DNA from: Desulfuromonadaceae bacterium
GTDB lineage: Bacteria > Desulfobacterota > Desulfuromonadia > Geobacterales > Pseudopelobacteraceae
Reading direction: 5' to 3'
Length of the DNA: 64,000 nucleotides
NCBI GenBank assembly: GCA_028687585.1
Contig: JAQTZV010000009.1
Location: forward strand, 62,001-126,000
The translations under genes were made by a program, and so were the position numbers. Numbering within the stretch: the first letter of the stretch is position 1; every line of letters starts with the position of its first letter. Of the stretch, positions 16,116 to 32,799 are shown one piece after another. The notes beneath the pieces were generated by a model. The model was given only the letters and a program-made list of their open reading frames with translations. It made no database searches and was not told the DNA's origin.

Positions 16116-17258
16116 ATGCCAGAACATCAAAACAGTGACATCGCCTTTCGGCGACTCTTCGAAACCAATATGGGCATTAAACCGGGAGAACGGGTACTTG
16201 TCTTCAGCGACACTATCCGCCCGGACGAAACAGTATCGGCATCAGACCGTGACAGGCGGGTCCGCCTCAATGCCGCAGCGCGTGCCGTCGCAGAATTTGC
16301 TGGGCGGATATACGGCTGCTGCAGTTTTGTTGAATTTCCCGCCACCCCGGCTTCGGGGGCAGAGCCGCCAGAGGAATTGTGGGAAGCAACTTTCGGCAAA
16401 ACTATCATGGCAGGGCTAAAATCAGAGGGCCTGCTGGGAAAGCTTCTCGCCAAGGCGGCATCGCCGGAAGAGATCGGCCGGGCCAGAAAAATTGTTCTTG
16501 ATCAGCAGGGAGACGTTGCTAGAATTATCATTGCATTATCAAACAACTCTAGCAGCCACACCCGCTATCGGGCATTGGCCTGTGCAGCCGGTTGCCGTTT
16601 TGCCAGCCTGCCGCATTTCGATCCGGAGATGTTTCATACATCAATGACCGTTGACTGGAGCGCTCTGGCAGCCCGTACCGCCGGTCTTGTAGCAGCGGTG
16701 AACCGGGCTGAATGGATCAGGGTTACCACTCCAAATGGCACCGGCATGATGATATGCAAACAGGGACGACAGGCTGGCGGAGATGATGGTTTGCTGACAG
16801 CGCCGGGAAGTTTTGGCAATTTGCCGGCCGGCGAAGCGTATTTTGCCCCGTTGGAGGGGAAAAGTCACGGCACCATGGTGATCGAATGGGGGCCGACCCA
16901 TAAGCTTGACGAACCGGTTATTCTGACGGTCGAGAACGGTGTCGTTGTGCAGATTGCCGGCAACGATCCTCATCGCGCCCGACTGGAAGCCAAATTTGCT
17001 GAACATGCCAACTGCCGCAACATAGCTGAACTGGGCATCGGCACCAACGACAAGGCCAGTCGCCCTGATAACGTACTGGAAGCAGAGAAAATTCTCGGTA
17101 CGATTCATATTGCATTAGGCGATAACAGCGGTTTTGGCGGCGCGGTCAGCGCACCATTCCATGAAGATTATGTTTTCTATCAACCGACACTGACGGCGAT
17201 TATGGCGGATGGGAGTGAGCGGGTTATTATTACTGATGGAACGCTCAATCTCGACTGA
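16116..17258 (+). CDS. M29-like (aminopeptidase T family) metallopeptidase
   Basis: The 380-residue protein has features of the M29 aminopeptidase group: an N-terminal alpha/beta part, and a C-terminal part with ELGIGTND, then EKILGTIHIALGDNSGFGG and HEDYVF, where family members place their metal-binding Glu, His and Asp. It likely removes N-terminal amino acids from peptides in the cytoplasm using two divalent metals. AAGGAG lies before the ATG at slightly long spacing (12 bases). The gene diverges from sfrB across 221 bases that must carry both promoters. The family call is moderately secure; substrate range is unknown. Confidence 0.72.
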   Translation: MPEHQNSDIAFRRLFETNMGIKPGERVLVFSDTIRPDETVSASDRDRRVRLNAAARAVAEFAGRIYGCCSFVEFPATPASGAEPPEELWEATFGKTIMAGLKSEGLLGKLLAKAASPEEIGRARKIVLDQQGDVARIIIALSNNSSSHTRYRALACAAGCRFASLPHFDPEMFHTSMTVDWSALAARTAGLVAAVNRAEWIRVTTPNGTGMMICKQGRQAGGDDGLLTAPGSFGNLPAGEAYFAPLEGKSHGTMVIEWGPTHKLDEPVILTVENGVVVQIAGNDPHRARLEAKFAEHANCRNIAELGIGTNDKASRPDNVLEAEKILGTIHIALGDNSGFGGAVSAPFHEDYVFYQPTLTAIMADGSERVIITDGTLNLD

Positions 17259-17329
17259 TGGCTTCCGCCGTCAAGGCTTCAAGAGGGGTTGCGCCTTCAA
17301 CTTGTTACGGTACTGTATTTTCGCCGACG

Positions 17330-17535
17330 GCTATGCTAGTTTCTGTCCGGAAACTCCGGACAAAAACTGCTGGTTTCCGATTTGGAAAGCGGGGATTTTT
17401 TCTTCTGGCAAGGAAATCAAGGATTTGTGCGGAGGCGTACACCGGTACGCCGCACAAACAAAGCCGAAGATTAACGCCGCCAGGGGAAAAAAGCACCCTT
17501 TCCGGGCGGAAACTATGCTACTGTCCGCCCGGTTA
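17330..17535 (+). other. Highly structured leader upstream of the cytochrome gene
   Basis: The 313-base gap before the cytochrome gene has no credible gene but several hairpins. TGTCCGG/CCGGACA encloses a five-base loop at 17344-17362. A 14-bp stem with a three-base bulge spans 17424-17458 (TTTGTGC + GGCGTAC pairing GTACGCC + GCACAAA around ACCG). CCGGGCGGA/TCCGCCCGG pairs 17502-17510 with 17524-17532. The word CTATGCTA followed by CTGTCCG occurs at both ends. This looks like a regulatory leader, but it could not be matched to a known riboswitch class. Confidence 0.4.
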
Positions 17536-17571
17536 CAACTCATAAACATTCTGCAACACTGGAGCACCTCT

Positions 17572-17904
17572 ATGAAATACCTCCTTTTGTTTATTGCCAT
17601 CTCTGCGGTTGCGGTGAGCGGCTGTACCATGTTCACTGCCTGGAAAAGTATTCCGCCACCCGGTGGATGCGACCAGTGTCATACTCTGCCGATCAGTGCC
17701 AACTGGCAGGCTGTTTACAAGCCGGCAACGGTGGCGGATGAGCGCGGTCGCCTCCCCTTCCAGACTCCGGAGTATAATCAGCCTGAACTTGGTGGACAAG
17801 TGTCTCCTCTGGAGGCGAAGAAAGTTGAAGAAAAAGCCTGCTTCGACTGCCACAAAGCTCCCACAAAGTCGCATAAGGATCTGAAAGGGCGCTTTCATCA
17901 TTAA
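17572..17904 (+). CDS. Two-haem c-type cytochrome lipoprotein
   Basis: The 110-residue protein begins with a lipoprotein signal peptide (lipobox VSGC, lipidated Cys18) and contains two c-haem sites, CDQCH at 33-37 and CFDCH at 90-94. It is therefore expected to be attached to a membrane on the periplasmic or outer face and to carry electrons. The open frame continues upstream for 121 codons, but the signal peptide fixes the start at 17572, with GGAG nine bases before it. It lies 56 bases ahead of acnA on the same strand and may share its transcript. A long structured leader precedes it. Confidence 0.82.
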   Translation: MKYLLLFIAISAVAVSGCTMFTAWKSIPPPGGCDQCHTLPISANWQAVYKPATVADERGRLPFQTPEYNQPELGGQVSPLEAKKVEEKACFDCHKAPTKSHKDLKGRFHH

Positions 17905-17960
17905 CTGACACGTGCCCTGCTTTTTCATACCGTTAAACTCCTGTACGAAGGAGACTGAAC

Positions 17961-20618
17961 ATGTCACTTGATTCATTTAAATCGGCCCGGACTCTTGCGG
18001 TACATGATCGCTCCTACCGGATTTTTTCAATCCCCGCTCTTGAACATGCGGCAATTGGCGATGTTGCCCGCCTCCCCTTTTCCCTGAAAATCCTGCTGGA
18101 AAATCTGCTGCGCCATGAAGATGGCCGGACCGTAACAACGGATGATATTACCGCCTTCGGAGAATGGCTTGACACTGGCTCATCTGTCCGTGAGATCGCC
18201 TTCAATCCGGGTCGCGTGCTGATGCAGGATTTTACCGGGGTCCCCGCCGTTGCTGATCTTGCAGCACTGCGGGATGCGGTTGCACGTTCGGGTGGCGATC
18301 CGGCAGCTATCAATCCTTTGATTCCGGTTGATCTGGTTATTGATCACTCGGTACAGGTGGACAGTTACGGTAATCCGGCTGCGTTTGATATCAATGTCGC
18401 CTGTGAGATGGAGCGCAACCGTGAGCGCTATGCCTTTCTTCGCTGGGGGCAGAGTGCGCTGCACAACTTTCGCGTCGTTCCGCCGGGAACCGGCATCTGT
18501 CACCAGGTGAACCTTGAATATCTGGCCAGGGTTGTCTGGCAGGACGAGTCCGGCTCACCAGATCCGGTCGCCTATCCCGATACCCTGCTGGGGACCGATA
18601 GTCATACCACCATGATTAATGGTCTCGGCGTACTCGGTTGGGGGGTCGGCGGCATCGAAGCCGAGGCTGCCATGCTTGGCCAGGCGGTGTCCATGCTGAT
18701 ACCGGAAGTCGTCGGCGTGCGTCTGGAGGGGGGGCTCAAGCCTGGGGTTACGGCCACTGATCTGGTGCTGTCAATTACGGAGTTGCTGCGCAAAGTCGGA
18801 GTGGTCGGTAAATTTGTTGAATTTTTCGGGAAGGGTCTTGATGCTCTTGCACTTGCCGACCGTGCCACCATAGCCAATATGGCCCCTGAATATGGCGCGA
18901 CCTGCGGTTTTTTCCCGGTAGATGCCGAAACGGTCTCCTATTTACGTTTTACCGGGCGGGATGATGCAACAACCGCTCTGGTCGAAGCCTACTGCCGCGC
19001 GCAGGGAATATGGCGCGATGCCGCCACGCAGGAACCGCGCTTCAGTCAGGTCGTAGCGCTTGACCTCGGCACGGTTGTTCCCTGCATTGCCGGACCCCGG
19101 CGTCCGCAGGACCGGGTGCCGCTGGCCGATCTGCTGCAGGTTTCGACTGTGACGCTTCCTGCTGGAGAAGAAGAACTGCAGGTGCCGATCTCAGTGTCCG
19201 GTACCGGATTGGCTCATGGCGCGGTTGTCATTGCCGCAATCACCTCCTGTACCAACACCTCTAATCCGGGAGTGATGCTGGCGGCGGGCCTGCTGGCCAA
19301 AAAAGCGGTGGCAGCGGGATTGACCGTCAAGCCGTGGGTCAAAACTTCTCTGGCGCCAGGTTCACAGGTCGTCATGACGTATCTGAAGCAGTCGGGACTG
19401 TACGATGCACTGGTGCAACTTGGTTTTGACCTGGTCGGTTTCGGCTGCACGACCTGTATCGGTAATTCCGGACCACTCCCTGAAGCCGTTGATGAAGCGA
19501 TCCGGAAGGGTAATCTGGTTACTTCGGCGGTACTGTCAGGCAATCGTAATTTTGAAGGGCGGATTCATCCGCAGGTCAAACAGAGTTGGCTGGCCTCGCC
19601 GCCATTGGTTGTGGCATTCGCCCTGGCCGGCACGACCAGGATTGACCTGACCAGCCAGCCGCTCGGAGTCGGCCGGAGTGGTCAACCGGTCTATCTGCGT
19701 GACATCTGGCCGTCAGTGGAGGAAATTGCCGCACTGCAAAGCTCTCTTACTCCGGACATATTCCGTCAGGGGTATGCCGATGTTTATAGCGGCACGGGTG
19801 AATGGCGGCAGCTGCCGATCGGCACAACCGCCACCTACCCCTGGGAGCCCGCTTCAACCTATGTCAAGGAGCCGCCGTTTTTCGCGTCTGCCCGGTCCGG
19901 GGAAGAAAGAAAGCTGCCGGAAAAGATGCGTATTCTTGCTCTACTGGGCGATTCCATCACCACGGATCATATTTCTCCCGCCGGCTCCATCCGCACGGAA
20001 AGCCCGGCGGGACGCTATCTCCGGCAGCAGGACGTAGCCGTCACCGATTTTAATTCCTACGGCTCACGGCGCGGCAATCATGAAGTCATGATGCGCGGCA
20101 CCTTTGCCAACACCCGGCTGCGCAATGAAATGGTGCCGCAGCTCGAAGGCGGCTATACACTGCACTTCCCGGACGGCGAAGAACTTTCAATTTATGACGC
20201 TGCCATGCGCTATCAGCAGGAGGGGATGCCGCTCGTGATCATCGCCGGAAAAGAGTACGGCTCCGGGTCGAGTCGCGACTGGGCCGCCAAGGGACCGCAA
20301 CTGCTGGGTGTGACTGCCGTGATTGCCGAGAGCTTCGAGCGCATTCACCGCTCAAACCTGATCGGTATGGGTATTCTTCCGCTACAGTTTTTGGAGGGGG
20401 TAACGCGCCGGACTCTTGCGCTGGACGGCTGCGAGACGATGGAGCTGAAACATCCGGAAGGTACGTTGCAGACGGGGCAGATTTTTGCGGCATTGATTCA
20501 TCGTCAGAATGGTCAAACGGAGCAGATAGCGCTGCGCTGTCGCCTGGATACGGTGAATGAAGTTGCCTACTACCGGGCCGGCGGAATTCTGCCGTATGTG
20601 CTGAAGCGGTATCGTTAA
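17961..20618 (+). CDS. acnA: Aconitate hydratase A
   Basis: Aconitase converts citrate to isocitrate in the TCA cycle using a [4Fe-4S] cluster. The 885 residues match AcnA/IRP-type length. Cluster cysteines are in ITSCTNTSNP and GFGCTTCIGNSG; the active-site arginine-serine region of domain 4 is YGSGSSRDWAAKGP, followed by ESFERIHRSNLIGMG. AAGGAGA precedes the ATG at 17961. The stop codon at 20616-20618 sits exactly at the edge of a relic of a response-regulator gene, and the last bases of acnA belong to a direct repeat (see the repeat at 20605). The gene itself looks complete. Confidence 0.95.
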   Translation: MSLDSFKSARTLAVHDRSYRIFSIPALEHAAIGDVARLPFSLKILLENLLRHEDGRTVTTDDITAFGEWLDTGSSVREIAFNPGRVLMQDFTGVPAVADLAALRDAVARSGGDPAAINPLIPVDLVIDHSVQVDSYGNPAAFDINVACEMERNRERYAFLRWGQSALHNFRVVPPGTGICHQVNLEYLARVVWQDESGSPDPVAYPDTLLGTDSHTTMINGLGVLGWGVGGIEAEAAMLGQAVSMLIPEVVGVRLEGGLKPGVTATDLVLSITELLRKVGVVGKFVEFFGKGLDALALADRATIANMAPEYGATCGFFPVDAETVSYLRFTGRDDATTALVEAYCRAQGIWRDAATQEPRFSQVVALDLGTVVPCIAGPRRPQDRVPLADLLQVSTVTLPAGEEELQVPISVSGTGLAHGAVVIAAITSCTNTSNPGVMLAAGLLAKKAVAAGLTVKPWVKTSLAPGSQVVMTYLKQSGLYDALVQLGFDLVGFGCTTCIGNSGPLPEAVDEAIRKGNLVTSAVLSGNRNFEGRIHPQVKQSWLASPPLVVAFALAGTTRIDLTSQPLGVGRSGQPVYLRDIWPSVEEIAALQSSLTPDIFRQGYADVYSGTGEWRQLPIGTTATYPWEPASTYVKEPPFFASARSGEERKLPEKMRILALLGDSITTDHISPAGSIRTESPAGRYLRQQDVAVTDFNSYGSRRGNHEVMMRGTFANTRLRNEMVPQLEGGYTLHFPDGEELSIYDAAMRYQQEGMPLVIIAGKEYGSGSSRDWAAKGPQLLGVTAVIAESFERIHRSNLIGMGILPLQFLEGVTRRTLALDGCETMELKHPEGTLQTGQIFAALIHRQNGQTEQIALRCRLDTVNEVAYYRAGGILPYVLKRYR

Positions 20619-20718
20619 TCGCCGTCGCACCCGGAACATTGCCGACCGCCCGCACCGTCCGGCAATGTTCCGGGTGCGAGGTGTCCGGTTCAAAATATTT
20701 ATGCAGCCGGACGATAAT
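20605..20718. repeat. Direct repeat, left copy, flanking the prkA-spoVR module
   Basis: This segment matches 28705-28819 in the same orientation. Uninterrupted shared runs are about 22 (starting at the acnA 3' end), 19, 17 and 15 bases, separated by diverged stretches. The copy begins within the last acnA codons, so the repeat includes the acnA/regulator junction and not just coding sequence. The right copy is the intact 3' end of the OmpR-type response regulator gene. Confidence 0.8.
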
Positions 20719-20722
20719 TTGC
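20615..20722 (-). pseudogene. Fragment of an OmpR-type response regulator (C-terminal winged helix)
   Basis: Read on the minus strand, about 35 codons encode IIVRLHKYFEPDTSHPEH then CRTVRAVG, which aligns with FIVRLRKYFEPDPSHPKH then FQTVRAVG at the end of the intact regulator at 28715-29422. After TVRAVG the frame is destroyed by the palindrome-forming change described at 20625. No receiver domain and no start remain, so it is a non-functional remnant. Confidence 0.75.
20625..20679 (+). terminator. 20-bp perfect hairpin downstream of acnA
   Basis: Bases 20625-20644 and 20660-20679 are perfect reverse complements around a 15-base loop. It begins seven bases after the acnA stop and could stabilise or end the acnA transcript, although no T-tract follows. 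The same position in the right-hand repeat copy has only a poor palindrome, so the perfect stem arose after duplication. Confidence 0.5.
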
Positions 20723-20730
20723 TCATTAGA

Positions 20731-20946
20731 CCCCATAGTCCTCCCGACCCCCATAGGATCCCCATAGTCCATCCCCATCATTAACTTCACTCTGTTACCG
20801 TAATCTGCGTTCCGTGATTTTCGACAAAATATTGACTTGCCAAAAGCTGAACATAGGTAATAATCAGAATATAAGAACGTAACTGTCCGTTTCATCCGTA
20901 AGCCCCGGATCGGAAGCGGTTATCGACATCAGTACGGAGGACGATC
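20731..20946 (+). promoter_or_regulatory. Putative promoter region of the prkA module
   Basis: After the regulator remnant come three degenerate copies of CCCCATAG (20731, 20749, 20760), then AT-richer DNA. TTGACT at 20832-20837 followed 16 bases later by TAGGTA and a nearby TAATAAT is the best promoter-like arrangement. No gene is seen in this stretch. GGAGG at 20936-20940 is the prkA ribosome site. Confidence 0.3.
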
Positions 20947-23001
20947 ATGGCTGCCTACGAAAAATTAACCCGACATCTTGTTGCTCTGAAGGAAGGTGAA
21001 CGAGTCTTCGAAAATGCCTTTCAGTCCGTGGCGAGGATGATTCTCGGAGAAGGATTCGTGAAAGTGGTGGTGAACGGCAGAACCACCTACGATTTCAAGC
21101 TGTTTCGCAGCGGGAAGAAGCACACGATCGGCATGTTCGACGAGATCAACAGCTTCGTCTCGTACGTGAAGGATGCTGCGGAGGGGGGCTCCAGCAAGGA
21201 AATGGCGTTCGTGCTGGTCGGCGAACCGGGCAACGGCAAAACCTTTTTTGTCGAATTCCTCTGCAGCCAGTACCGGGCTTTCCTGTCGCAAGCGAAGAAC
21301 CGCCGCTATACCTTTCGCTTTAACGGTCTCGCGCAGCTGGGACATTACGGCAAGATCAACATTATCGACTCGCAGACCTACGAAGATCCGCTGATTCTGG
21401 CGATGAACCTGAGTGACCGGGCGGAGGATAACCGCCGCTTCCTGGCCGAACAGGGGGGACTGGACGATGCCGCGATCGACGTCCTCTACGAAAACTATCG
21501 CCCCATGGGCGCCTGCAGCGGCTATATCTGGAACGATATCCGCGACTTTTGCGACGGTAATCTGGAACGGATGCTGGAATTTATCGAGGTGATTCCGGTG
21601 CCGATGAGCGAGAGCCTTGGCACCGTGACCGGCAAGTACCCGGCCAAGGACAAGATCACCTCGTCATCGGTCGATCTGCTCGGCGAAGAATCGATCCAGC
21701 GGCTGCTGCATATTTCCGACACCAACAATCCCTACCGTTTTGATCTGCGGCGCGGCGCCCTGGCCCGGGTCGCCGGCGGCGGCATTCATTTCTCCGACGA
21801 AATTTTCAAGAACAAGAAAGATCTGGTTCAGGTCTATCTGGGGGTCATTCAGAACCGGGCCATTGAGATCGACGGCTATCGCTGGCCGATCGACTCCCTG
21901 ATCATCGCTACCAGCAACAACTCCGAATTCAACCGTTTCCTCTCCGAAAAGGAAGAGGCGCCGATCGTGGACCGCTGCCGGATCTGTTATGTCTCCCACA
22001 ACACCAATTACCGGCTCCAAGAGGGGCTCACCTCCTACGCCATAGGCAGCGAAGCAAAAACAACCCTGTCCAAAGAAGCGCTGCACCAGGATCCGAACCT
22101 CAACTATGCGGCTTCCGTGGGGGTGGTTCTGACCAGGCTTCCCCGTTCGGAGAAGCTCACCTCCATCGAAACCATGAAACTGGCCGCAGGAGAAGTGGCG
22201 GGTGAAAAGAGCATCAAGGCTCTGGCCGAGGTGATCGACACCCTCGGGCAGGATCCCGACATTACCAAGCGCTTCGGCCAGAAAGGACTGGGACATCGCA
22301 GCCTCGGCCGTTCCATCCAGCTCCAGGTGGAAAATTCAGAAACCAACGAAGGGCGCTGCATGTTCGCCTACGATGTCTTCAAAACCCTGGAGCGGGTGGT
22401 ACTCGACTACGTGTCTGACACCAATGACCGGGCAAAGTATTTGGAAGATTTGAAGATCGCCAAAGGGCTGTACCGCGAACGGATCATGACTGAAATGTTC
22501 AATGCCTATATGGATGAACCGTATGCGATCCGCAAGGACGTGATGAATTACGTCAATATGATCATCGGCATTGATGCGGAGAATCTGGGACCTGACAGGA
22601 TGTGGAAATACAAGGACCCCCAAAGCGGCGAACTGCGGGCGCTGAAGATCGACGAACGTTATGTGAAGAGTGTGGAGGAGCGGATCGGGCTGAAAACAGA
22701 GGAACAGCGGGACTCATTCCGCACCTCTATCCGCAAGATATACGGCCAGAAGATTTCCATGGATCCGAATTATGACTTTATGGACAACCTGGAACTGGTC
22801 AAGGCAATCACTGATGTGCGCCTCAAGTCTGATATCGCCGGCGCCGGCAGCCTGATTGGCGCCTTGGCAAACCGGACCAACGAGGAGAACCAGAAGCTGT
22901 ACGACCGGATGATCACAACCATGCTGAACAAACTGGGGTACTGCCGGACCTGTGCACAGAAGACTATCGAGTATTTCTGCACACAGGAGGATGAAAACTA
23001 G
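20947..23001 (+). CDS. prkA: PrkA family serine protein kinase / AAA ATPase
   Basis: PrkA proteins are stress-linked cytoplasmic proteins with an AAA ATPase domain and a C-terminal kinase-like domain, encoded beside YeaH and SpoVR in many bacteria. The 684 residues show Walker A GEPGNGKT at 92-99, an internal segment IHFSDEIFKNKKDLVQ, and SLIIATSNNSEFNRF typical of the family. GGAGG lies six bases before the ATG. It is the first gene of a four-gene unit with a 20-base gap to yeaH. Recent work in other bacteria questions kinase versus protease activity, so the biochemical role should be held loosely. Confidence 0.88.
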   Translation: MAAYEKLTRHLVALKEGERVFENAFQSVARMILGEGFVKVVVNGRTTYDFKLFRSGKKHTIGMFDEINSFVSYVKDAAEGGSSKEMAFVLVGEPGNGKTFFVEFLCSQYRAFLSQAKNRRYTFRFNGLAQLGHYGKINIIDSQTYEDPLILAMNLSDRAEDNRRFLAEQGGLDDAAIDVLYENYRPMGACSGYIWNDIRDFCDGNLERMLEFIEVIPVPMSESLGTVTGKYPAKDKITSSSVDLLGEESIQRLLHISDTNNPYRFDLRRGALARVAGGGIHFSDEIFKNKKDLVQVYLGVIQNRAIEIDGYRWPIDSLIIATSNNSEFNRFLSEKEEAPIVDRCRICYVSHNTNYRLQEGLTSYAIGSEAKTTLSKEALHQDPNLNYAASVGVVLTRLPRSEKLTSIETMKLAAGEVAGEKSIKALAEVIDTLGQDPDITKRFGQKGLGHRSLGRSIQLQVENSETNEGRCMFAYDVFKTLERVVLDYVSDTNDRAKYLEDLKIAKGLYRERIMTEMFNAYMDEPYAIRKDVMNYVNMIIGIDAENLGPDRMWKYKDPQSGELRALKIDERYVKSVEERIGLKTEEQRDSFRTSIRKIYGQKISMDPNYDFMDNLELVKAITDVRLKSDIAGAGSLIGALANRTNEENQKLYDRMITTMLNKLGYCRTCAQKTIEYFCTQEDEN

Positions 23002-23021
23002 ACGGGAACACACAATCTACT

Positions 23022-24401
23022 ATGCGAAACGATCTGCGTACATATCTTGACGAACTGAAAGCGCGCGGCCTTGACGCGGAACGGGAGGCGCGCATGCGGG
23101 CCGAGCTGGCGACGGCATCGGACGGCCATGCTCTGCCGCCGGTCGATCTGCCGCAAAGCAATGAGCTGTCCCGGTTCGGGCGCAGCATCTATGCCGATGG
23201 CGACCTGCTTGTATTGCGCCAAGCAGTAGCTCCGCAGATAAGCGCCGCCGCGCTGGCAAAATCGCTGGATGAACTTCTGGAGCGCGATCGCCAGCGGGAA
23301 CAGGATGGCTTTCCCCGCAAAATCCAGATCGGCAAACTGGTAAAACCGGGGCGTGGCCGCAATGGGAAGGTTGTGGTCGTACCGACCACGGTTGAGGAAA
23401 AGCTGTTTCACGATCCGACGGTACGCCCGTCGGGAGAAGGTGGTTCATCGGGCGGCACCGGCGACGGCGAAGATGGTGAAGTCATCGGCGAACAGCCGGT
23501 CCGTGAGGAGGGAGAACAGCCCGGAACCGGCCCCGGTCAGGGTGGGGGGGAAAACCATGAGCTTGAATCGTCCGCCTATGATCTGGGCAAGTCGCTGGCC
23601 GAAAAATTTCAGCTGCCGAACCTGAAGGACAAGGGGAAGAAACGTTCTTTTACCCGTTACACTTACGATCTGACTGACAAGAACCGCGGTTTCGGTCAGG
23701 TGCTGGACAAGAAGGCGACCCTGCGCAAGATCGTGGAAACGAACATCGCCCTCGGAAACCTCCCCGACGTGTCGGACATCGACCCGACCCGTTTTCTGAT
23801 TGCGCCGCACGACAAGATCTACCGGGTGCTTTCCCGGGAAAAGGATTATGAACCGCAGGCGATGCTCTTCTTTCTGCGCGACTATTCCGGCTCCATGGCC
23901 GGAAAGGTTACCGATCTGATCGTATCCCAGCATGTCCTGATCTACAGCTGGCTGCTCTTTCAGTACGGCGGCCAGGCGGAAAGCCGCTTCATCCTGCATG
24001 ACACCGAAGCCAAAGAGGTGCCTGACTTCTACACCTATTACAACTCACGGGTTGCCGGCGGCACCCAGGTTTCCAGCGCCTATCAGCTGGTTAACGAGAT
24101 CGTTGCCCGCGAGAATCTGGAAAAGGATTACAACATCTATGTTTTTCACGGTACCGATGGCGATGACTGGGATGAAGGGGGCGAAAAGGCGATTCCCGAG
24201 ATACGGAAAATGCTCTCGTATGTCAGCCGGTTCGGAGTGACCATTGCCGAGCACGGCCAACCCGGCTCGACCACGGTTTCCCGTTACCTGCTCGGCTCTG
24301 GGCTTCTCAAGGACAAACCGGACCTGATCAGAATGGATATCATGCAGGAAGATGCGGACGAAACGCGGCTGATCGAGGGGATCAAGAAATTGATATCGTG
24401 A
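23022..24401 (+). CDS. yeaH: YeaH/YhbH family protein (DUF444)
   Basis: The 459-residue protein matches DUF444. The N-terminal half is charged and includes a glycine/glutamate-rich low-complexity stretch around residues 140-185. The C-terminal half is a von Willebrand A-like fold with an intact metal-site motif DYSGSM in FFLRDYSGSMAGK. Family members are co-expressed with PrkA and SpoVR in stationary phase, nitrogen stress or sporulation, and their molecular job is unknown. The ribosome site is weak (GGGAAC), which together with the 20-base gap suggests coupling to prkA translation. Confidence 0.88.
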   Translation: MRNDLRTYLDELKARGLDAEREARMRAELATASDGHALPPVDLPQSNELSRFGRSIYADGDLLVLRQAVAPQISAAALAKSLDELLERDRQREQDGFPRKIQIGKLVKPGRGRNGKVVVVPTTVEEKLFHDPTVRPSGEGGSSGGTGDGEDGEVIGEQPVREEGEQPGTGPGQGGGENHELESSAYDLGKSLAEKFQLPNLKDKGKKRSFTRYTYDLTDKNRGFGQVLDKKATLRKIVETNIALGNLPDVSDIDPTRFLIAPHDKIYRVLSREKDYEPQAMLFFLRDYSGSMAGKVTDLIVSQHVLIYSWLLFQYGGQAESRFILHDTEAKEVPDFYTYYNSRVAGGTQVSSAYQLVNEIVARENLEKDYNIYVFHGTDGDDWDEGGEKAIPEIRKMLSYVSRFGVTIAEHGQPGSTTVSRYLLGSGLLKDKPDLIRMDIMQEDADETRLIEGIKKLIS

Positions 24402-24427
24402 TAACAGGGTAGCCATAAATACAGATT

Positions 24428-24564
24428 GACCTTGCGATCTCCAGGAAACGCGATTTTTTCGCAAGGTCAAGGCGCACAAGGAAATGCAGCGCAGGCGTAG
24501 CAGCGCTACGGTGAGCATGTATTTCCGCAGAGCAACGCGGAGATTGCGAAAAAGGCGCGTTTCT
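24428..24564. repeat. Palindromic MITE-like element ending four bases before spoVR
   Basis: A block of about 122 bases (24443-24564) has imperfect terminal inverted repeats: GAAACGCGATTTTTTCGCAA at its left end and, read on the other strand, AGAAACGCGCCTTTTTCGCAA minus one base at its right end. A further perfect 10-bp inverted pair (GACCTTGCGA and TCGCAAGGTC) spans 24428-24468, and the core has AGCAGCGCTACG-type symmetry. No protein is encoded. Only one copy is present in the window, so mobility is inferred from structure. Confidence 0.55.
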
Positions 24565-24567
24565 ATC

Positions 24568-26199
24568 ATGGAACTTATCAATCAACATACCAAACGTATC
24601 ATGGAAGGGTGCAAGGAGCGCGCCCGGGCTGCCGGTCTTTCCTTTACCGACGAGAGCCTGGAGTACGTCGTCACCAACCGGGATCTGCTGGAACTCTCCC
24701 CCAAGGTGATGATCCCGACGCTCTACGATTACTGGGTTCACGACGTCGAGGTACTGCGGGAGAAAGGGAAGTACGAGCTCTACCCCCACAACCCCTACGA
24801 GACGGTCATCAATACAAGGCCGCCGATATCTTTTTACAACGACAACAACCCGGACTGGCTGAATGTGATGATCTTCTATCATGTCCTGGCTCATATTGAT
24901 TTTTTCCAGAACAACCTCTATTTCCGTAATACCTGGGACTACGACTTTACCGGTCAGGCGCTCTCGGACAAACGGGTCATTGCCAAACTGCGCGCCGAGA
25001 AGGGGCGCTGGGTTGACTATGTGATCGAATTTGCCCGGGGCATCGACAACCTGGTCGACTTCCATGGAGATCTGGCAGATCTCTTCACCCCCTCCGGGGC
25101 GGAGTGTTCGTCCCGGCTCGATTACTATTTTGATGTTTTTCTCCAGGCGGAGAAAAAGGTCTCGGTCAGCGACTACATCAAAGAGGTGGGGCGCTACAAC
25201 GATTGCCTCAAAGAATTTGGCGACCAGGGAGAGAAAACCTTCTTCGCCGAGGCTGAACTCCGTTATCCGGAACTGGAAGCGCATTTTGCCCGGACAGGAG
25301 ATGCGCAGCCGACCAGAAAGCGCGACCTGCTTCGTTACCTGCTGGACAATTCCGAGTTTCTGGCCAGGGACGAGAACGTCTGGATGCGATCGATCCTGGA
25401 AATCGTCCGCAAGACCTCTCTGTTCTTTCAACCGCAGATCCGGACCAAAATCTTGAACGAGGGATGGGCCAGCTACTGGCATGAACGCCTCTTCCTGCAG
25501 GATGACCGCATCAAGGGGCATGAGGTGGATTTTGCCCGGGTCCATGCCGGCGTCACTTCCATGCCTCGGGTCGGAATGAACCCGTATGCACTCGGCATGC
25601 GGCTCTTCAGCCACATTGAGGAGCAGGCCGACAAGGGGCGCCTCTCCTTTGCATTCCAGCGGCTTCTGGACGCCGACCAGCGCAAGAAGTTCGATACCGG
25701 CTCGGCAGCAGGGCATGACTTCATCTTTAGGGTACGGGAAAACCTGTGCGATTACCTCTTCCTGAAAACCTATCTGGATCAGGAGTTCCTCGACCGGCAC
25801 AAGCTGTTTGTTGCCGGCAAGCGACTCGACCAGCAGCGCATGGTGTGGCAGTATTACATCAAAAACCGCAATGCGGAAGAGTATCAAAAGATGATGCTGG
25901 ATTCCCTCTATCATCCTCCGGTTATCACCATAGACCAGACCAAGGGGATCGAAGGTTCCCTTTACCTGAATCACGCATTCGAGGGGAAACAGCTGGTTCG
26001 GGAATATGTTGCCAACACCTTGATGGGAATCGAATACCTCTGGGGGAGCCCGGTCTATCTGGAGACCAGTGAAGCGGAAGTGGTCGCCTCGTCACCCTAT
26101 GCGCCAAGACAGGAAGAGCCCCGGGACGAGGAGATAACCTGGCAGCGGGTGCTGTATTCGATGAATGAGAAGATATTGTCGAAAAAGAAAATTGAGTGA
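24568..26199 (+). CDS. spoVR: SpoVR family protein
   Basis: The 543-residue protein belongs to the SpoVR/YcgB family, named for a role in Bacillus spore cortex formation but widespread in non-sporulating bacteria. Recognisable segments are LYDYWVHDVEVLREKGKY, YHVLAHIDFFQNN, FHGDLADLF, NEGWASYWHERLF and VDFARVHAGVTSMPRVGMN. The frame is open upstream to 24484 but that part lies in the palindromic element, so the start is placed at ATG 24568. No normal ribosome site remains: the element supplies only AAAAAGGCG. A long antisense open frame across the gene is a composition shadow. Function is unknown beyond association with PrkA and YeaH. Confidence 0.88.
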   Translation: MELINQHTKRIMEGCKERARAAGLSFTDESLEYVVTNRDLLELSPKVMIPTLYDYWVHDVEVLREKGKYELYPHNPYETVINTRPPISFYNDNNPDWLNVMIFYHVLAHIDFFQNNLYFRNTWDYDFTGQALSDKRVIAKLRAEKGRWVDYVIEFARGIDNLVDFHGDLADLFTPSGAECSSRLDYYFDVFLQAEKKVSVSDYIKEVGRYNDCLKEFGDQGEKTFFAEAELRYPELEAHFARTGDAQPTRKRDLLRYLLDNSEFLARDENVWMRSILEIVRKTSLFFQPQIRTKILNEGWASYWHERLFLQDDRIKGHEVDFARVHAGVTSMPRVGMNPYALGMRLFSHIEEQADKGRLSFAFQRLLDADQRKKFDTGSAAGHDFIFRVRENLCDYLFLKTYLDQEFLDRHKLFVAGKRLDQQRMVWQYYIKNRNAEEYQKMMLDSLYHPPVITIDQTKGIEGSLYLNHAFEGKQLVREYVANTLMGIEYLWGSPVYLETSEAEVVASSPYAPRQEEPRDEEITWQRVLYSMNEKILSKKKIE

Positions 26200-26224
26200 G
26201 TTACAAAGGGTAACCGGGTGACAT

Positions 26225-28516
26225 ATGTCAAATGTCGATAACGCCATACGGCATCTCAATCGAAAAATCAGCGAACGGGAGCAGAGCCAGACCATCTCCT
26301 TCGATGATTTTCTAAAGATCCTGACCGTTAAACCGGCGGCGGTTGTGCGCAATGTTTTTCAGACCTTTCATGACATGGTCCGCACGTACGTCGGCGTGGG
26401 GCTCGATGAGTACCCCGACGACCCGGAATCGATCAATTATGTGAATTACGACTGTCGCAACCTCTTTGTCAATGATACGGATCGTCCGTTTTTTGCCGAC
26501 CGGCTCTTCGCCAACCGCTTCATTAACCATGTTGACGATATGAAGGGGAGTGCACGGCAGAACAAGATCTACATCTTCGAAGGGCCACCCGGTTCCGGCA
26601 AGAGTACCTTTCTCAACAACCTGCTGCTCAAATTCGAGGAATACGCCAACAGCGAGGAGGGAACGCGCTACGAGGTGGTTTGGAAACTTGATCGGAGGAT
26701 ACTGGCGCAAATCAACGAGACCCAGTTGTCGTCTTTTGTTGACCGGCTTACGAACCTGCTCGATGAATATGAACTGGGGCAGGCCGAACTTGCCGAAATG
26801 AAAAGCTCCATTTACCGCAGCGGCGATTTCGTGGAAGTACACTGTCCCTCCCATGACAATCCGCTCCTGCTGATCCCCAAACGGGACCGGCGCACCTTTT
26901 TCGACGATATCTTCAAGAACGACGAGTTCAAGTGGAAACTCTTTACCGACAAGGAGTACGAGTGGGTTTTCCGGGAGACCCCCTGCACGATCTGCAGCTC
27001 GATCTTCGAAGCCCTGATCCAGCGCCTCCCCACCTCCAAAGACATCTACAGCATGATCCATGCCCGCCCTTACCGTTTCAACCGCCGCCTCGGAGAAGGG
27101 ATCACCGTCTTTAACCCTGGCGACAAACCGATGAAGCAGAACGTCATGACCAACGAACTGCTGCAGCGTAAGATCGATGTCCTGCTAAGTGACAGCAATG
27201 CGGTCAAGTACCTGTTTTCGAGTTTTGCCAAGACCAACAACGGCATCTACGCCCTGATGGATGTGAAGTCTCACAATGCCGAGCGGTTACTGGAACTGCA
27301 CAACATCATCAGCGAGGGAATCCACAAAGTGGAGGATCTGGAGGAGAATGTCAAATCGCTCTTCATCGCCCTGATGAACCCGGAGGATGAGAAGACCATT
27401 GAGGGGTTCCAGTCTTTTACCGACCGGATCGAGTTTATCAATATTCCGTATGTCATGGACCTGAACACCGAGGTGGAGATCTACCGCAACATCTTCGGCA
27501 AGCATATTGAAGAGAATTTCATTCCCCGCGTCCTGCATAACTTTGCCCGCACCATCATTTCCACCCGAATGAATCTCGCGTCGGAGGCGATGCAGGAATG
27601 GATCGGAGATACGGAAAAATACGGGCAGTATTGCGACGAAAACCTTCAGATCCTCAAGATGGAATGCTATACCGGCAATATCCCGGCATGGCTCACGGAG
27701 GAGGATCGCAAGCGGCTCACCGCCAAACGGAGGCGCAGCATTATCGACGAGTCGGAGAAGGAAGGAGTTACCGGTTTTTCCGGCCGTGATTCGATCAAGA
27801 TTTTCGGAGATTTCTATGCGGCCTATGCCCGCAAGGACAAGCTTATCTCCATGTCCAGTCTCAACACGTTCTTCACCAAGAGGCGTACGGACCTGAAGGA
27901 GATGCTGCCGGAAGGATTTCTCGATTCGCTGCTCCGGAACTACAACTATGCGGTATTGCAGGAGGTCAAGGGGGCACTCTACAACTTCAACGAGGAGCAG
28001 ATTGCCCGGGACCTGCTCAACTATATGTTTGCGGTCAGTTTCGAGCCGGGATCGGTAGCGGTCTGTCGCTTCACCAACGAAAAGCTGGAGATCAGCGAAG
28101 AATTTCTGTGCGCAATTGAGGTGAGGCTCCTCGGAACGGCGATTGATGAGAGCACACGTCTCTCGTTCCGGCGCGAAACGCAGAAGGAATATGCATCCCG
28201 GACCCTGACCCAGGAGATTCTTGCAGAAGGGAAAGAGCCAAGAGAAACGGGACTCTACCAGGCGCTTCATGCACGGTATGTTCACAATCTGAAGGAAAAG
28301 GTGCTGGATCCGTTTCTTGACAACGACAACTTCCGACGTGCGATCAAGGATTACGACTCCGAGGACTTCAAAACTTACGACAAACGGATCCGCGACGATG
28401 TCTCGTTTCTTATCAACAACCTTTGCGCCGCCAAGTACCACTACACCAAGCAGGGTGCAAAGGAAGTATGTGTCTATGTGATCGACAACGATCTGGCGCG
28501 CAGATTCAGGTCATAA
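26225..28516 (+). CDS. Second, divergent PrkA-like P-loop protein
   Basis: The 763-residue protein has a Walker A motif GPPGSGKST at 120-128, a preceding helical region that parallels PrkA, and long C-terminal stretches (PYRFNRRLGEG, VMTNELLQRKID, SFTDRIEFINIPYVMD) that resemble PrkA-type proteins without being the canonical form. It is clearly not a duplicate of the first prkA: it is longer, its P-loop differs and global similarity is low. It follows spoVR by 25 bases and is the last gene of the unit. A role alongside PrkA in the same stress pathway is inferred from position. Family assignment to a PrkA-like group is tentative. Confidence 0.65.
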   Translation: MSNVDNAIRHLNRKISEREQSQTISFDDFLKILTVKPAAVVRNVFQTFHDMVRTYVGVGLDEYPDDPESINYVNYDCRNLFVNDTDRPFFADRLFANRFINHVDDMKGSARQNKIYIFEGPPGSGKSTFLNNLLLKFEEYANSEEGTRYEVVWKLDRRILAQINETQLSSFVDRLTNLLDEYELGQAELAEMKSSIYRSGDFVEVHCPSHDNPLLLIPKRDRRTFFDDIFKNDEFKWKLFTDKEYEWVFRETPCTICSSIFEALIQRLPTSKDIYSMIHARPYRFNRRLGEGITVFNPGDKPMKQNVMTNELLQRKIDVLLSDSNAVKYLFSSFAKTNNGIYALMDVKSHNAERLLELHNIISEGIHKVEDLEENVKSLFIALMNPEDEKTIEGFQSFTDRIEFINIPYVMDLNTEVEIYRNIFGKHIEENFIPRVLHNFARTIISTRMNLASEAMQEWIGDTEKYGQYCDENLQILKMECYTGNIPAWLTEEDRKRLTAKRRRSIIDESEKEGVTGFSGRDSIKIFGDFYAAYARKDKLISMSSLNTFFTKRRTDLKEMLPEGFLDSLLRNYNYAVLQEVKGALYNFNEEQIARDLLNYMFAVSFEPGSVAVCRFTNEKLEISEEFLCAIEVRLLGTAIDESTRLSFRRETQKEYASRTLTQEILAEGKEPRETGLYQALHARYVHNLKEKVLDPFLDNDNFRRAIKDYDSEDFKTYDKRIRDDVSFLINNLCAAKYHYTKQGAKEVCVYVIDNDLARRFRS

Positions 28517-28543
28517 TGGGTAAACGCATGATCCTCCGACACC

Positions 28544-28688
28544 TCAATCGCTCTTCCGCTTGCCCCCCTGCTGCACAAATTCCAGCAGATTTTTTCTATT
28601 GGCCTCACCAATGATAATCATTGCCCTGTTACCTCGTACTACCACTCTGAGCGGCCCCTTCTTGACGGCCGTTCCTGTTAACAGCCAT
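28544..28688 (-). CDS. Possible 47-residue protein between convergent operons
   Basis: A frame from ATG 28688 to TGA 28544 encodes a peptide with a plausible strand-helix pattern (GPLRVVVRGNRAMIIIGE then ANRKNLLEFVQQ). It lies just downstream of the response regulator on the same strand. There is no good ribosome site and the region also carries a terminator on the other strand, so it may be a real small protein, the tail of a lost gene, or chance. Weak support. Confidence 0.25.
28568..28595 (+). terminator. Intrinsic terminator of the prkA-spoVR unit
   Basis: CTGCTG (28568-28573) pairs with CAGCAG (28583-28588) around a nine-base loop and is followed by A and six T residues. It is 51 bases past the last gene of the unit. 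The stem is short, so strength is uncertain. Confidence 0.5.
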
Positions 28689-28704
28689 CTGCCGGAACAC
28701 CGAT

Positions 28705-28819
28705 AGCGGTATCGTTAATCGCCGTCACGACTGAACCGATAGCCGACCGCCCGCACCGTCTGGAAATGTTTCGGATGTGAAGGATCCGGTTCAAAATATT
28801 TGCGCAGCCGGACGATAAA
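28705..28819. repeat. Direct repeat, right copy (3' end of the response regulator)
   Basis: This is the intact counterpart of the repeat at 20605. It contains the regulator stop codon plus ten bases beyond it, which read AGCGGTATCG as at the end of acnA. The upstream bases 28690-28704 share only a short TGCCG with the acnA tail. The arrangement is what would be left if a junction of acnA and the regulator had been duplicated when the module at 20.9-28.5 kb came in. Confidence 0.8.
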
Positions 28820-29422
28820 GTTGTCCAGTGTTCTGGTTTCGGTGTCACTGCTGTATCCCCATACGGAGCGGAGCAGCTCGGTGCGATGGATGGGCCGCCC
28901 CTCTTTCTGGAAAAAAAGTGCCAAAACCCGTACTTCCATCTCGGTCAGGTCAATCTCCCCCTGGGCTGTTCGTGCCCGGTACGAAAGCAGAAAGACCTCA
29001 TTGTCGCCAAAGCGATACCCCTCTTCAACCGGCTCCGGCCGATACCATGACGAACGTCGCAGCATCCCTTTGACCCGCAGCAGAAATTCTACCAGATTAA
29101 ACGGCTTGGTGAGGTAATCGTCAGCGCCGTTTTCCAACCCCTCGACCCGGTCGGCATCTTCGGAACGCGCCGTCAGCATCAGGATAGGAACCCGCGGGTC
29201 AAGGATTCTGATGGCCCGGCATGCCTGTAAACCATCCATGCCGGGAAGCATGACATCAAGAATAACCAGATCGAAACGCTCAATTTCAAGAGTTGCCAGA
29301 GCACGCTCGGCGGTTTCAAAATGACTGACCCGGTGCCCCTCTTCTTCCAGATTGAAACAGATGCCGCGAGCGAGGTGAATTTCGTCTTCAACAAGCATGA
29401 TGTGAGGTTTGTCGTCAGTCAT
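28715..29422 (-). CDS. OmpR/PhoB-family response regulator
   Basis: The 235-residue protein has a receiver domain with acidic pocket Asp12/Asp14 region in VEDE, phosphoacceptor Asp56 in VILDVMLPGMDG, and Lys near 106 in YLTKPFN, followed by an OmpR-type winged-helix domain ending FIVRLRKYFEPDPSHPKH. It is transcribed with the histidine kinase gene, which ends nine bases upstream of its start... the kinase stop at 29432 and this ATG at 29422 are close on the minus strand, indicating one operon with the kinase first. The signal and targets are unknown. Its 3' end is duplicated beside acnA. Confidence 0.93.
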   Translation of the reverse strand: MTDDKPHIMLVEDEIHLARGICFNLEEEGHRVSHFETAERALATLEIERFDLVILDVMLPGMDGLQACRAIRILDPRVPILMLTARSEDADRVEGLENGADDYLTKPFNLVEFLLRVKGMLRRSSWYRPEPVEEGYRFGDNEVFLLSYRARTAQGEIDLTEMEVRVLALFFQKEGRPIHRTELLRSVWGYSSDTETRTLDNFIVRLRKYFEPDPSHPKHFQTVRAVGYRFSRDGD

Positions 29423-29431
29423 GGTATTTCC

Positions 29432-30367
29432 TCATGCAGCGGGAAGTTTTACGGTAAACGTACACCCTTTGCCAAGCCCTTCACTGGTAACCCCGACGGT
29501 GCCGCCATACCCCCTGATTACGGTCTCCACGATGTAGAGACCAAGCCCGGTGCCACGGACATTATTGCCCGGGGGCTGCACGCGATAGAAACGTTCGAAG
29601 ATATTTTTACGATTTTTTTTATCAAGTCCCCGACCGTGGTCCTGTACCGTAAGATGAAGCATGGTACCGACTTTGGCCAGTTTAACCGATATTTCTGGAC
29701 TTTGCGGGGAGTAGAGTACCGCATTTTCGAACAGGTTGCGCAGCACCATACTCATTTCTTCGGGATCAACCAGCGCTTTCAGCTCCGGTACGGCATTAAA
29801 TGAGATGCTTCCCCCCTGTGGGAGGGTAGCGTTCTCTCGATCAACATGATCCTGTACGAGGAGGGTCAGGTCGGTCAGCCGTCGATCGGACTGCTTGCGG
29901 CGCTGCTCCAGTCGCGCGGCCATCAGCAGATTATTGATCAGATAATGGAGACGGTCTGTGTCGGCAAGCATGATGCCGACAAAAGAGTCAAGGCGCTCTT
30001 CAGATGGCTTGCGCAGGCGGATTGTTTCCAGGTGGAGCTGGATGGAAGCAAGCGGTGATTTTAGTTCATGGGTCACCTGCGAAATAATATTACGCTGCTG
30101 TAGATAGAGGTTTGACTGGCGGTTCCAGTAAACAAAGATCACATAGACACCGATCAGCATCAGCACCAACATGACCAGCCCCTCTACCATAACCGGCCAG
30201 TTTGCCCCCTGGCCGAGCAGTTCGGGGCGGTATTTTTCCGCCAGTTCACGGAATTCGCGATGCTTGCCGATAAACCAGTAGATCCAGAACACGACCGCAG
30301 TGATCCAGACGAGTTGGATGGCGATCAGGGCCATGATCGGATGAAAGATGCGGCGAAGAATGTTCAT
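29432..30367 (-). CDS. Membrane sensor histidine kinase
   Basis: The 311-residue kinase has two membrane segments (about residues 11-33 and 60-81) with only a short loop of some 26 residues between them, then a dimerisation domain with phosphoacceptor His100 in SQVTHELKSPLASIQ, and an ATPase domain with N box NLFENAVLYS, G1 DHGRGLD and G2 GTGLGLYIVE. The small external loop suggests sensing within the membrane or through a partner. The start at 30367 is chosen because GGGGA lies five bases before it; an upstream ATG at 30460 lacks a ribosome site. It forms an operon with the downstream OmpR-type regulator. Confidence 0.9.
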   Translation of the reverse strand: MNILRRIFHPIMALIAIQLVWITAVVFWIYWFIGKHREFRELAEKYRPELLGQGANWPVMVEGLVMLVLMLIGVYVIFVYWNRQSNLYLQQRNIISQVTHELKSPLASIQLHLETIRLRKPSEERLDSFVGIMLADTDRLHYLINNLLMAARLEQRRKQSDRRLTDLTLLVQDHVDRENATLPQGGSISFNAVPELKALVDPEEMSMVLRNLFENAVLYSPQSPEISVKLAKVGTMLHLTVQDHGRGLDKKNRKNIFERFYRVQPPGNNVRGTGLGLYIVETVIRGYGGTVGVTSEGLGKGCTFTVKLPAA

Positions 30368-30672
30368 TATTTCCCCATGTTCCTGGATTGACCAGCCGAA
30401 GATGATGGATCGTAATACTCCCTTCAGTGTGACGATATCCAGAATCGAGCATAGCGGCATTGATTCATATAATCAAGTATGCCAACGGTTGTTTCGTAAT
30501 TATTGATTTCATAGAATCTGGGAAACGTGGTATTGATGGAGGGTGTTTTCAAACCTTTAAGCCGCTGAAACTGGGGGATTTATAATTTTTTTGTTCGATT
30601 TTTCCGATAATTTAAAAAATATATTTTCCGTCATAAATCCTTTTCATCACCCAAATTAGAATGGAGACGTTT
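30368..30672. other. AT-rich intergenic region
   Basis: This gap of about 300 bases separates divergent genes and has no credible gene. It is visibly richer in A and T than the flanks, with TATAATTTTTTTG near 30581 and runs such as TTTAAAAAATATATTTT near 30611-30627. It should hold promoters for the kinase operon and the glycosyltransferase, but no single promoter stands out. Confidence 0.4.
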
Positions 30673-32034
30673 GTGCCTTTTAAAGAAACCAATGCCTTAT
30701 CAGGATATTCTATTTTATCCCGCAGACCTGTTTCTTATCGGTGGGAACTATTAGTCCGCTTCACCATAATAATTGCCCTCGGTATCGTTTTTTACTGGAG
30801 TATTACCGGCGGGATATTTCAGCCGCTGATAATTGCGCTAAAAAGCTCTCAATGGGCGAGTCTGTTTGTGCGGCCTAGCATGATTTGGGGATCCATGGGG
30901 ATTCTGCTGCTGTCATTTAGAACGGTTCTATGGTTTGGTTACAAAAAATTCCCGTCTGCGGGAATTGCTGACGCACCATCGTTGACGGTCATAATACCGG
31001 CATATAACGAAGGGGCGATGGTCGAAAATACCATAGAATCAGTAGTATCAGCCTGCTATCCAAAAGACCGGCTGGAAATATTTGTCGTTGATGACGGCAG
31101 TAAAGATGATACCTGGCATTATATTCAAGCTGCAGCAATGCGTTATCCTCATCTGGTCACAACAGTCCGTTTTCCTGAAAACAGGGGGAAGCGTGCTGCG
31201 CTTGAAGCCGGTTTCAGGAAAGCCTGCGGAGAAATCGTGGTCACCATTGATTCGGATAGCGTCATTGAACCGCAGACGTTACTCGCCATTGTTGGCCCGT
31301 TTAAGAATCAATCGGTAGGCGCTGTTGCAGGTAAAGTGGTGGTTTATAACCGACATGAGGGAATCATACCCCGAATGCTTCATGTGCGTTTTATTCTCTC
31401 TTTTGATTTTCTTCGAGCCGTACAGTCAACCTATGGTACAGTCTACTGCTGCCCCGGGGCGCTTGCAGCATACCGTACCAGTGTGGTGCGGAAGGTGCTT
31501 GTCCCCTGGATGAATCAGACTTTTTTAGGGCGGCCATGCACGTACGGTGAAGACCGGTCAATGACAAATTTCATTCTGGAGCAAGGGTTTGATACGGTGT
31601 ACCAGCGCAGTTCGGTTGTTCACACGAATGCGCCAACCACCTATACAAGGCTCTGCAAGATGTATTTGCGCTGGGATCGAAGCTATATAAAGGAAGAAAT
31701 CAGATTTGCCCGAATTGTCTGGACTCGCCCGCTCCGTTCAAGGGTCATTGCAATTATTGACAAGGTCATCACAAATCTTCGCTATCCGGTAAACTATGCC
31801 ATTCTCGCGCTGCTCGTTTCGATGTTGATATATGATCCACATACCATTATCAGACTGCTGTTTGCCATCGGACTACTCTCCTCATTGAACATCCTGTACT
31901 ACCTGCACAGTGAGCGCTCCTGGGATTTTGTCTATGGAATATTATACTCATACTTCGCATTTTTCGCTCTCTTCTGGATTTTCCCCGTCGCCATTATTAC
32001 GGTTCGTTCCCGGTCATGGATGACCCGCGGGTAA
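30673..32034 (+). CDS. Membrane glycosyltransferase family 2 (hyaluronan/chitin synthase-like)
   Basis: The protein of about 453 residues has two N-terminal membrane segments, a cytoplasmic GT2 domain and several C-terminal membrane segments. GT2 motifs are TVIIPAYNEG, VVDDGSKDDT, the metal-binding DSDS, the catalytic-base region GEDRSMTN and RWDRSY at the position of the processive QxxRW motif, here lacking the Gln. It probably makes a polysaccharide and moves it across the inner membrane. GTG at 30673 is chosen because GGAG lies six bases before it; ATG at 30661 is the alternative. No other polysaccharide gene is beside it. Confidence 0.82.
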   Translation: MPFKETNALSGYSILSRRPVSYRWELLVRFTIIIALGIVFYWSITGGIFQPLIIALKSSQWASLFVRPSMIWGSMGILLLSFRTVLWFGYKKFPSAGIADAPSLTVIIPAYNEGAMVENTIESVVSACYPKDRLEIFVVDDGSKDDTWHYIQAAAMRYPHLVTTVRFPENRGKRAALEAGFRKACGEIVVTIDSDSVIEPQTLLAIVGPFKNQSVGAVAGKVVVYNRHEGIIPRMLHVRFILSFDFLRAVQSTYGTVYCCPGALAAYRTSVVRKVLVPWMNQTFLGRPCTYGEDRSMTNFILEQGFDTVYQRSSVVHTNAPTTYTRLCKMYLRWDRSYIKEEIRFARIVWTRPLRSRVIAIIDKVITNLRYPVNYAILALLVSMLIYDPHTIIRLLFAIGLLSSLNILYYLHSERSWDFVYGILYSYFAFFALFWIFPVAIITVRSRSWMTRG

Positions 32035-32150
32035 TGCCAAAATAATACAACGGAAAGCGGATATGAGCCGAGTGGGAGTTTGTTTTGAGGTCTCCGCGTC
32101 ACTGATGCCGGGAGAGACTTGTTCTGAATTATGTGGTAGGGAGAAAGTTC

Positions 32151-32753: not shown

Positions 32754-32799
32754 CATGTTGGGTACGATCGAAATACTTAAGTCATATAACCTGCCGATT

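Follow-up and report, generated by a model that had tools for sequence, protein, structure and literature searches.

A doubled gene junction around the prkA-yeaH-spoVR-prkA module

We analysed a stretch of 64,000 nucleotides (the window; assembly GCA_028687585.1, contig JAQTZV010000009.1, positions 62,001 to 126,000) from the draft genome of a Desulfuromonadaceae bacterium, which consists of 60 contigs and is here termed G000. In the window a four-gene module, prkA1-yeaH-spoVR-prkA2, lies between acnA, encoding aconitate hydratase, and the gene for a response regulator that is transcribed toward acnA from the opposite strand (Table 1). An original prediction, made from the window alone, held that acnA and the regulator were once convergent neighbours with touching stop codons, and that the module had entered their junction with duplication of the junction.

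The two ends of the region align in the same orientation (20605-20717 with 28705-28818) over 114 columns with 84.2% identity (E = 1.5e-25 in a self-comparison of 14 kb and 4.6e-27 against the whole window), and the identical runs of 22, 19, 17 and 15 bases reported for them were all found in the two copies. The right copy is the working end of the regulator gene, which is intact and has its stop codon as TTA at 28715-28717 on the minus strand. The ten bases outside the regulator (28705-28714) are identical to the tail of acnA at 20605-20614. The left copy is a dead remnant of a regulator fused to the stop of acnA, as had been proposed: the acnA stop codon at 20616-20618 overlaps a regulator-type TTA at 20615-20617, and the regulator-derived bases overlap both the last codon and the stop of acnA. 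The remnants are reciprocal, 95-odd bp of the regulator being left beside acnA and 10 bp of acnA beside the regulator. A longer acnA remnant was sought in the right copy, where a further upstream match, TCTGCCG, is too short to judge.

The regulator has 135 protein-level matches in the host genome. A search of that genome with the left copy returned, apart from the query itself, the right copy (E = 1.2e-28) and the inverted repeat within the query (E = 1.1e-9); the next match was at E = 0.155. Because the matches are limited to the right copy and its own palindrome, the left copy is a remnant of the neighbouring regulator and not of a paralogue; no other regulator aligned better. The repeats do not touch the module. 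The DNA common to other copies of the module spans approximately 20819-28517, and the spacers of ~101 bp to the left and ~187 bp to the right had no match in the 38 other genomes of our comparison set (39 genomes of the genus, G000 included).

Table 1. Position of genes, junction copies and related features in the window.
Feature	Position	Strand	Basis or remark
Small protein with two CxxCH motifs	17572..17904	+	No Pfam or NCBIfam match; read as c-type cytochrome-like
acnA, aconitate hydratase	17961..20618	+	Pfam, NCBIfam; comparison of acnA ends
Left junction copy	20605..20717	+	acnA tail (20605-20614), then dead regulator 3' end
Palindrome left arm	20625..20644	+	Complement of 20660-20679, rewritten
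Palindrome right arm	20660..20679	+	Still regulator-like (5 differences in 20); likely template
Left spacer, ~101 bp	20718..20818		Query 20719-20946: matches in 5 other genomes start at or after 20820
Upstream region of module, conserved	20819..20946	+	Sequence comparison with relatives
prkA1, PrkA-type kinase/AAA protein	20947..23001	+	Pfam PF06798 and PF08298 above cut-off; NCBIfam match below cut-off
yeaH (DUF444)	23022..24401	+	Pfam, NCBIfam
spoVR	24484..26199	+	Pfam
prkA2, second PrkA-type protein	26225..28516	+	Pfam; no NCBIfam match
Right spacer, ~187 bp	28518..28704		Query 28514-28704 matched itself only among 39 genomes
Right junction copy	28705..28818	+	10 bp dead acnA tail (28705-28714), then working regulator 3' end
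OmpR/PhoB-type response regulator, intact	28715..29422	-	Pfam; matched in 39/39 genomes
Histidine kinase of the regulator	29432..30460	-	Pfam; relatives

The acnA/regulator junction in related genomes

The regulator was matched in all genomes of the set, although split over two contig ends in G021 and located on two contigs in G034. acnA is linked to it in 10 of the 39. Seven of these ten (G031, G029, G036, G019, G033, G007 and G059, where acnA on the contig is the last 58 residues only) have the two genes in convergent orientation with ~5-200 bp between the aligned ends and no large insert, so an empty site exists. The direct adjacency without the module that the original prediction had led us to look for is therefore present in relatives, and with the touching stops written in both copies of the window it bears out the view that the two genes once met end to end. 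In the three other genomes, G000, G024 and G032, acnA and the regulator are 7-8 kb apart. A module at this site lacking the left remnant was not encountered, since no module gene was matched in the stretches examined beside the regulator in the 38 other genomes. In G031 and G059 the acnA-regulator spacers (L039 and L207, ~190-200 bp) have inverted CACAGAG-type ends, like a small palindromic repeat element.

The gene to the left of acnA in the window, which we read as cytochrome-like from its two CxxCH motifs, is the regulator's ancestral neighbour on the left in genomes that lack acnA here. It faces the regulator directly, at 7-134 bp, in 16 of the 39 genomes and at ~0.73 and 0.94 kb in two more; it was unmatched in the stretch examined in 11. 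One of the 16 is G008 (L200), in which only 7 bp separate the cytochrome-like gene from the regulator although its sister species have acnA there. acnA itself thus comes and goes at the site. In a tree of the regulator and its kinase G031, G008 and G024 form the sister clade of G000 (support 0.99), within which G008 pairs with G024 (support 0.57). The acnA tree differs in pairing G000 weakly with G031 (0.49). No odd stretch was found near the acnA end of G000 or G024 among nine acnA genes.

Other inserts at the same junction

The sister species G024 carries a 7.3-kb insert between acnA and the regulator that is unrelated to the cargo of the window, and comparison of the flanks detected no sequence common to the two inserts. 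Four of nine insert proteins scanned matched Pfam, as a Phd/YefM antitoxin, a Gp49-like protein, a helix-turn-helix protein and a WYL-domain protein; the other five had no match, and no recombinase domain was found among the nine. We take the Gp49-like protein to be toxin-type. Two of six G024 proteins were matched by PADLOC, one by a candidate-system model and one by WYL models. A 319-bp copy of the 3' part of the regulator adjoins acnA, with 95% identity to the intact gene, and a 40-bp acnA tail (35/40 identical) lies 221 bp beyond the end of the intact regulator. This acnA piece is identical to the acnA of G024 itself at 35/41 positions, compared to 23-30/41 for 25 other acnA ends and 31/40 for that of G000. 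In both species acnA is fused directly to the regulator stop in the left copy. The end points of the repeats differ, the 95 bp of regulator in G000 lying within the 315 bp compared in G024. Thus, a tight convergent junction received an insert and was doubled in the window, and a sister species shows the same anatomy around other cargo.

When the regulator DNA of the window was compared to the 39 genomes, matches to the regulator 3' end of at least 100 bp, beyond whole genes and the split gene of G021, were found in G000 and G024 only. A comparison of each regulator with the stretch on its own 3' side (39 stretches, 38 other genomes) identified G024 and, in addition, a 57-bp match in G001 toward the regulator 5' part.

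The two regulator copies of G024 differ at 16 of 315 positions, with four differences in the first 63, none in the middle 186 and 12 in the final 66. Synonymous changes account for 13 of all 16 (P 0.0008-0.004 under a null in which the dead copy drifts freely and the live copy changes synonymously only), and an identical run as long as the observed 191 bases was reached in none of 100,000 random placements. The 12 differences in the last 66 bases lie within the range between species, as 25% of 703 regulator pairs have 12 or fewer. The simplest reading of these patterns is that functional alleles of two lineages were set side by side, and that gene conversion later made their middle identical. 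The source lineage of the foreign-looking 3' end could not be named, the nearest sequences (G035 and G000) matching at 58/68 positions, which is too short.

In the third genome, G032, the 7.3-kb insert at this junction encodes a BrnTA pair and an RHS protein, and no recombinase was found among four insert proteins scanned, one of which had no match. Altogether, three of the ten genomes with linked acnA carry unrelated inserts at this junction.

The module at other loci

The module is present in 15 of the 39 genomes, judged by SpoVR matches, and lies at the acnA/regulator site in the window only. In the other 14 genomes the gene order is unchanged as far as the contigs reach, while the neighbours vary; a gene read as aroC lies upstream in five genomes, and a few downstream genes recur. 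At 10 other loci the contig covers both sides of the module, and there the comparison of the flanks gave two short inverted matches only and no bracketing direct repeat; four module genomes with cut flanks were left out. The duplication therefore belongs to the site and not to the module. The module is absent from the sister clade G031, G008 and G024, and the regulator-kinase tree is compatible with its gain in G000 as well as with a single loss among the sisters. The lowest synonymous distances of the module were to G018 (0.71 and 0.86 for two contig pieces, against 0.93 for the core) and G015 (0.83, against 1.12 for the core).

Genes for PrkA-type proteins stand at both ends of yeaH-spoVR, and this arrangement is kept in relatives with the whole module on a contig. 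The true start of spoVR is possibly further in than annotated, as most relatives align from residue 22-29 onward. SpoVR matches with one or two in-frame stops were found at L068 (G025), L070 (G022), L071 (G005) and L073 (G018). The GC content of the module (~52-59%) does not set it apart. An Rfam scan of 17000-33000 and a PADLOC scan of the four module proteins found nothing. We found no publication for the module names combined, and make no claim that such scars are unreported.

On the far side of the regulator and its kinase, the region 30661-32753 before dinG contains a glycosyltransferase gene and a second small gene. Its GC content is ~43-47%, compared to ~52-60% in most neighbouring kilobases, and kinase and dinG abut in G031. 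It probably represents a second insertion within this cluster.

A palindrome in the left copy

The left copy contains two 20-bp arms that are exact reverse complements (20625-20644 and 20660-20679), and 20625-20679 is the only perfect inverted repeat in the window with arms of at least 16 and a loop of at most 40 nucleotides. The right arm resembles the regulator, from which it differs at 5 of 20 positions, while the left arm is unlike its counterpart. The left copy folds far beyond shuffled sequences (z -6.9 as DNA, -6.8 as RNA), whereas the right copy, which has no hairpin, folds no better than shuffles (z +1.13). The stem begins six bases past the acnA stop, has no T-run and is not listed as terminator-like; it might make the acnA message more stable.

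Perfect inverted arms of this kind are usually explained by template switching, and the palindrome probably arose in this way, one perfect arm being ancestral-like and the other overwritten. Since the left arm was rewritten as the complement of the right arm, a single event accounts for some of what looks like decay in the left copy. The rewriting of one arm as the exact complement of the other resembles quasipalindrome-associated template-switch mutation (e.g., PMC7202029). It differs in that the unchanged copy shows little prior palindrome, so that the rewritten tract is long compared to the similarity that existed before.

Divergence of the junction copies

The dating of the two copies that the original prediction had called for was done outside the left arm of the palindrome, where they differ at 10 of 93 positions. 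Among 54 coding bases compared there were five synonymous and four non-synonymous differences. The synonymous distance of the G000 regulator to those of G031, G008 and G024 is 0.57-0.64, which puts the age of the insertion, roughly, at ~0.31 (0.14-0.57) of that of the split between G000 and these species, provided that the copies were identical at the start and have not undergone conversion. Conversion would make the insertion look younger and an imported allele would make it look older. The differences in the window are expected if the left copy has simply decayed while the right copy was under constraint (P 0.25-0.39), and are weakly unusual if the left copy alone is assigned all changes (P 0.03-0.12). 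Only G024 provides evidence for diverged alleles.

Origin of the doubled junction

Entry of the module into the acnA/regulator junction with duplication of the junction is supported by the repeat, the empty site and the reciprocal remnants. As for the route, we find the best explanation, to which we give an even chance, to be a cassette without a recognisable integrase that carried a copy of the junction and integrated by a single homologous crossover of the Campbell type. The cassette (prkA1-yeaH-spoVR-prkA2 and the upstream region) would have arrived on DNA that also carried the junction copy, e.g., on a circle or another additive donor from a relative. Such a crossover would place a junction copy on either side of the cassette and spare both genes. 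The right copy would stay the 3' end of the regulator, while the left copy, freed from selection, would drift, and template switching would overwrite one of its arms to give the perfect hairpin just past the acnA stop. A junction copy on each side with reciprocal remnants is found both in the window (95-odd and 10 bp) and in G024 (319 and 40 bp). One crossover with cassette-plus-junction DNA would account for the reciprocal remnants in one step and for the allele-like differences in G024.

Several observations weigh against this crossover. No donor, circle or source of the spacers was found, and a search for a recent donor of the module gave none that was close among the genomes sampled. A homology of 114 bp is short for a crossover, and a single loss would also explain why the sister clade lacks the module. 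An imported allele is not needed in the window, because its copies fit plain decay, and no junction duplication was detected around the G032 insert. The ComEC and DprA families are found in the host genome; the same search finds both in E. coli too, and their presence is thus weak evidence on natural transformation.

The same reciprocal remnants would result from two steps, if the junction was first duplicated in tandem over a short length and the cassette was inserted later, by any means, into the neutral joint between the dead regulator tail and the dead acnA tail. Differing end points in G000 and G024 would be natural for tandem duplications. However, a doubled junction without cargo was seen in none of the 39 genomes (in the stretches beside the regulator, and within the sensitivity of BLAST), each of the two lineages must have undergone two events at a single spot, and the allele-like pattern of the G024 copies is left unexplained. 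We regard these two steps as unlikely. Replication-based copying, in which synthesis breaks off in the regulator, copies the module from another molecule and returns slightly upstream in the acnA tail, would double the stretch in between. It would account for the variable repeat length and the lack of a recombinase, and the left-copy palindrome is an independent sign of template switching, but it predicts copies that are identical at first, unlike those of G024. We consider such copying improbable.

If the junction had been duplicated just once and long ago, in an ancestor common to G000 and G024, with later exchange of the cargo and restoration of a clean site in G031 and G008, this would fit the fusion of acnA to the regulator stop in both lineages and the position of the 95 bp of G000 inside the 315 bp of G024. 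Over 58 bases, a short comparison, the left copy of G000 nevertheless has 14 differences to the left copy of G024, compared to 10 to its own right copy and 8 to G031; the age estimate is younger than the split, and the inserts had no detected common sequence in the flanks compared. This makes one ancestral duplication very unlikely. We see hardly any room for a site-specific island with the regulator 3' end as integrase attachment site and the repeats as island ends. An intact 3' end of the target gene with a remnant at the far side is what islands at gene 3' ends present, but an integrase is absent from the four window genes, no recombinase domain was found in the nine G024 proteins (five without a match), and both lengths and ends of the repeats differ between G000 and G024. 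An assembly artefact would be conceivable as G000 is a draft, yet the two copies share just 84% identity, the outer genes are ordered as in relatives and a second species has the same anatomy, so that we give it next to no credence. A transposon target-site duplication was also considered and is ruled against by the length of the repeats (114 bp here, 319 and 40 bp in G024) and by the spacers between repeat and module.

The original prediction had taken the long, decayed repeat as a sign of entry by recombination rather than transposition. The 114-bp length, the absence of a recombinase among the four window insert genes (Pfam) and the case of G024 agree with this. The decay is in part the palindrome, which is probably due to template switching. 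It is conceivable, if rather doubtful, that junction doubling is a recurrent and harmless entry route for integrase-less cassettes between convergent genes, whose DNA would come with a junction copy of its own. The doubled junction would then provide homologous arms for clean loss or exchange of the cargo, and would be a self-made docking site used at least two times independently (window and G024).

Cassettes that enter without an integrase usually leave little trace. Here the trace can be read, in the empty site, the reciprocal remnants and the scar of a second species, whose copies resemble alleles from separate lineages. A search across genomes for cargo that lies between convergent genes and is flanked by reciprocal 3'-end remnants could gauge how often additive recombination delivers genes.

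Relation to known systems

Genomic islands at gene 3' ends have the intact target gene on one side, a 3' remnant on the other and direct repeats at their ends. The window and G024 resemble them in having an intact regulator on one side and its 3' remnant on the other, and differ in that no integrase was found and the repeat length is not fixed.

Merodiploids with large duplications are made during natural transformation (Johnston et al., 2013; PMC3784515). As in those merodiploids, recombination with incoming DNA would here leave duplicated host sequence. Those duplications are ~100-900 kb, tandem and bordered by repeats, whereas ~0.1-0.4 kb is doubled around foreign cargo at the acnA/regulator junction.

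For hotspots without recognisable mobile elements, Oliveira et al. (2017; PMC5635113) propose double recombination at flanking core genes. Our locus is like these hotspots. The cargo varies between the same neighbours, and no recombinase or mobile-element gene was found in the inserts scanned. In G024 a flanking gene may show signs of recombination, its regulator copies being mosaic. The locus is unlike that model in that a double crossover leaves no duplication, while here the junction is doubled, which points to an additive event. The acnA/regulator junction is an insertion hotspot without a recognisable integrase, of a known kind and with an added junction scar.

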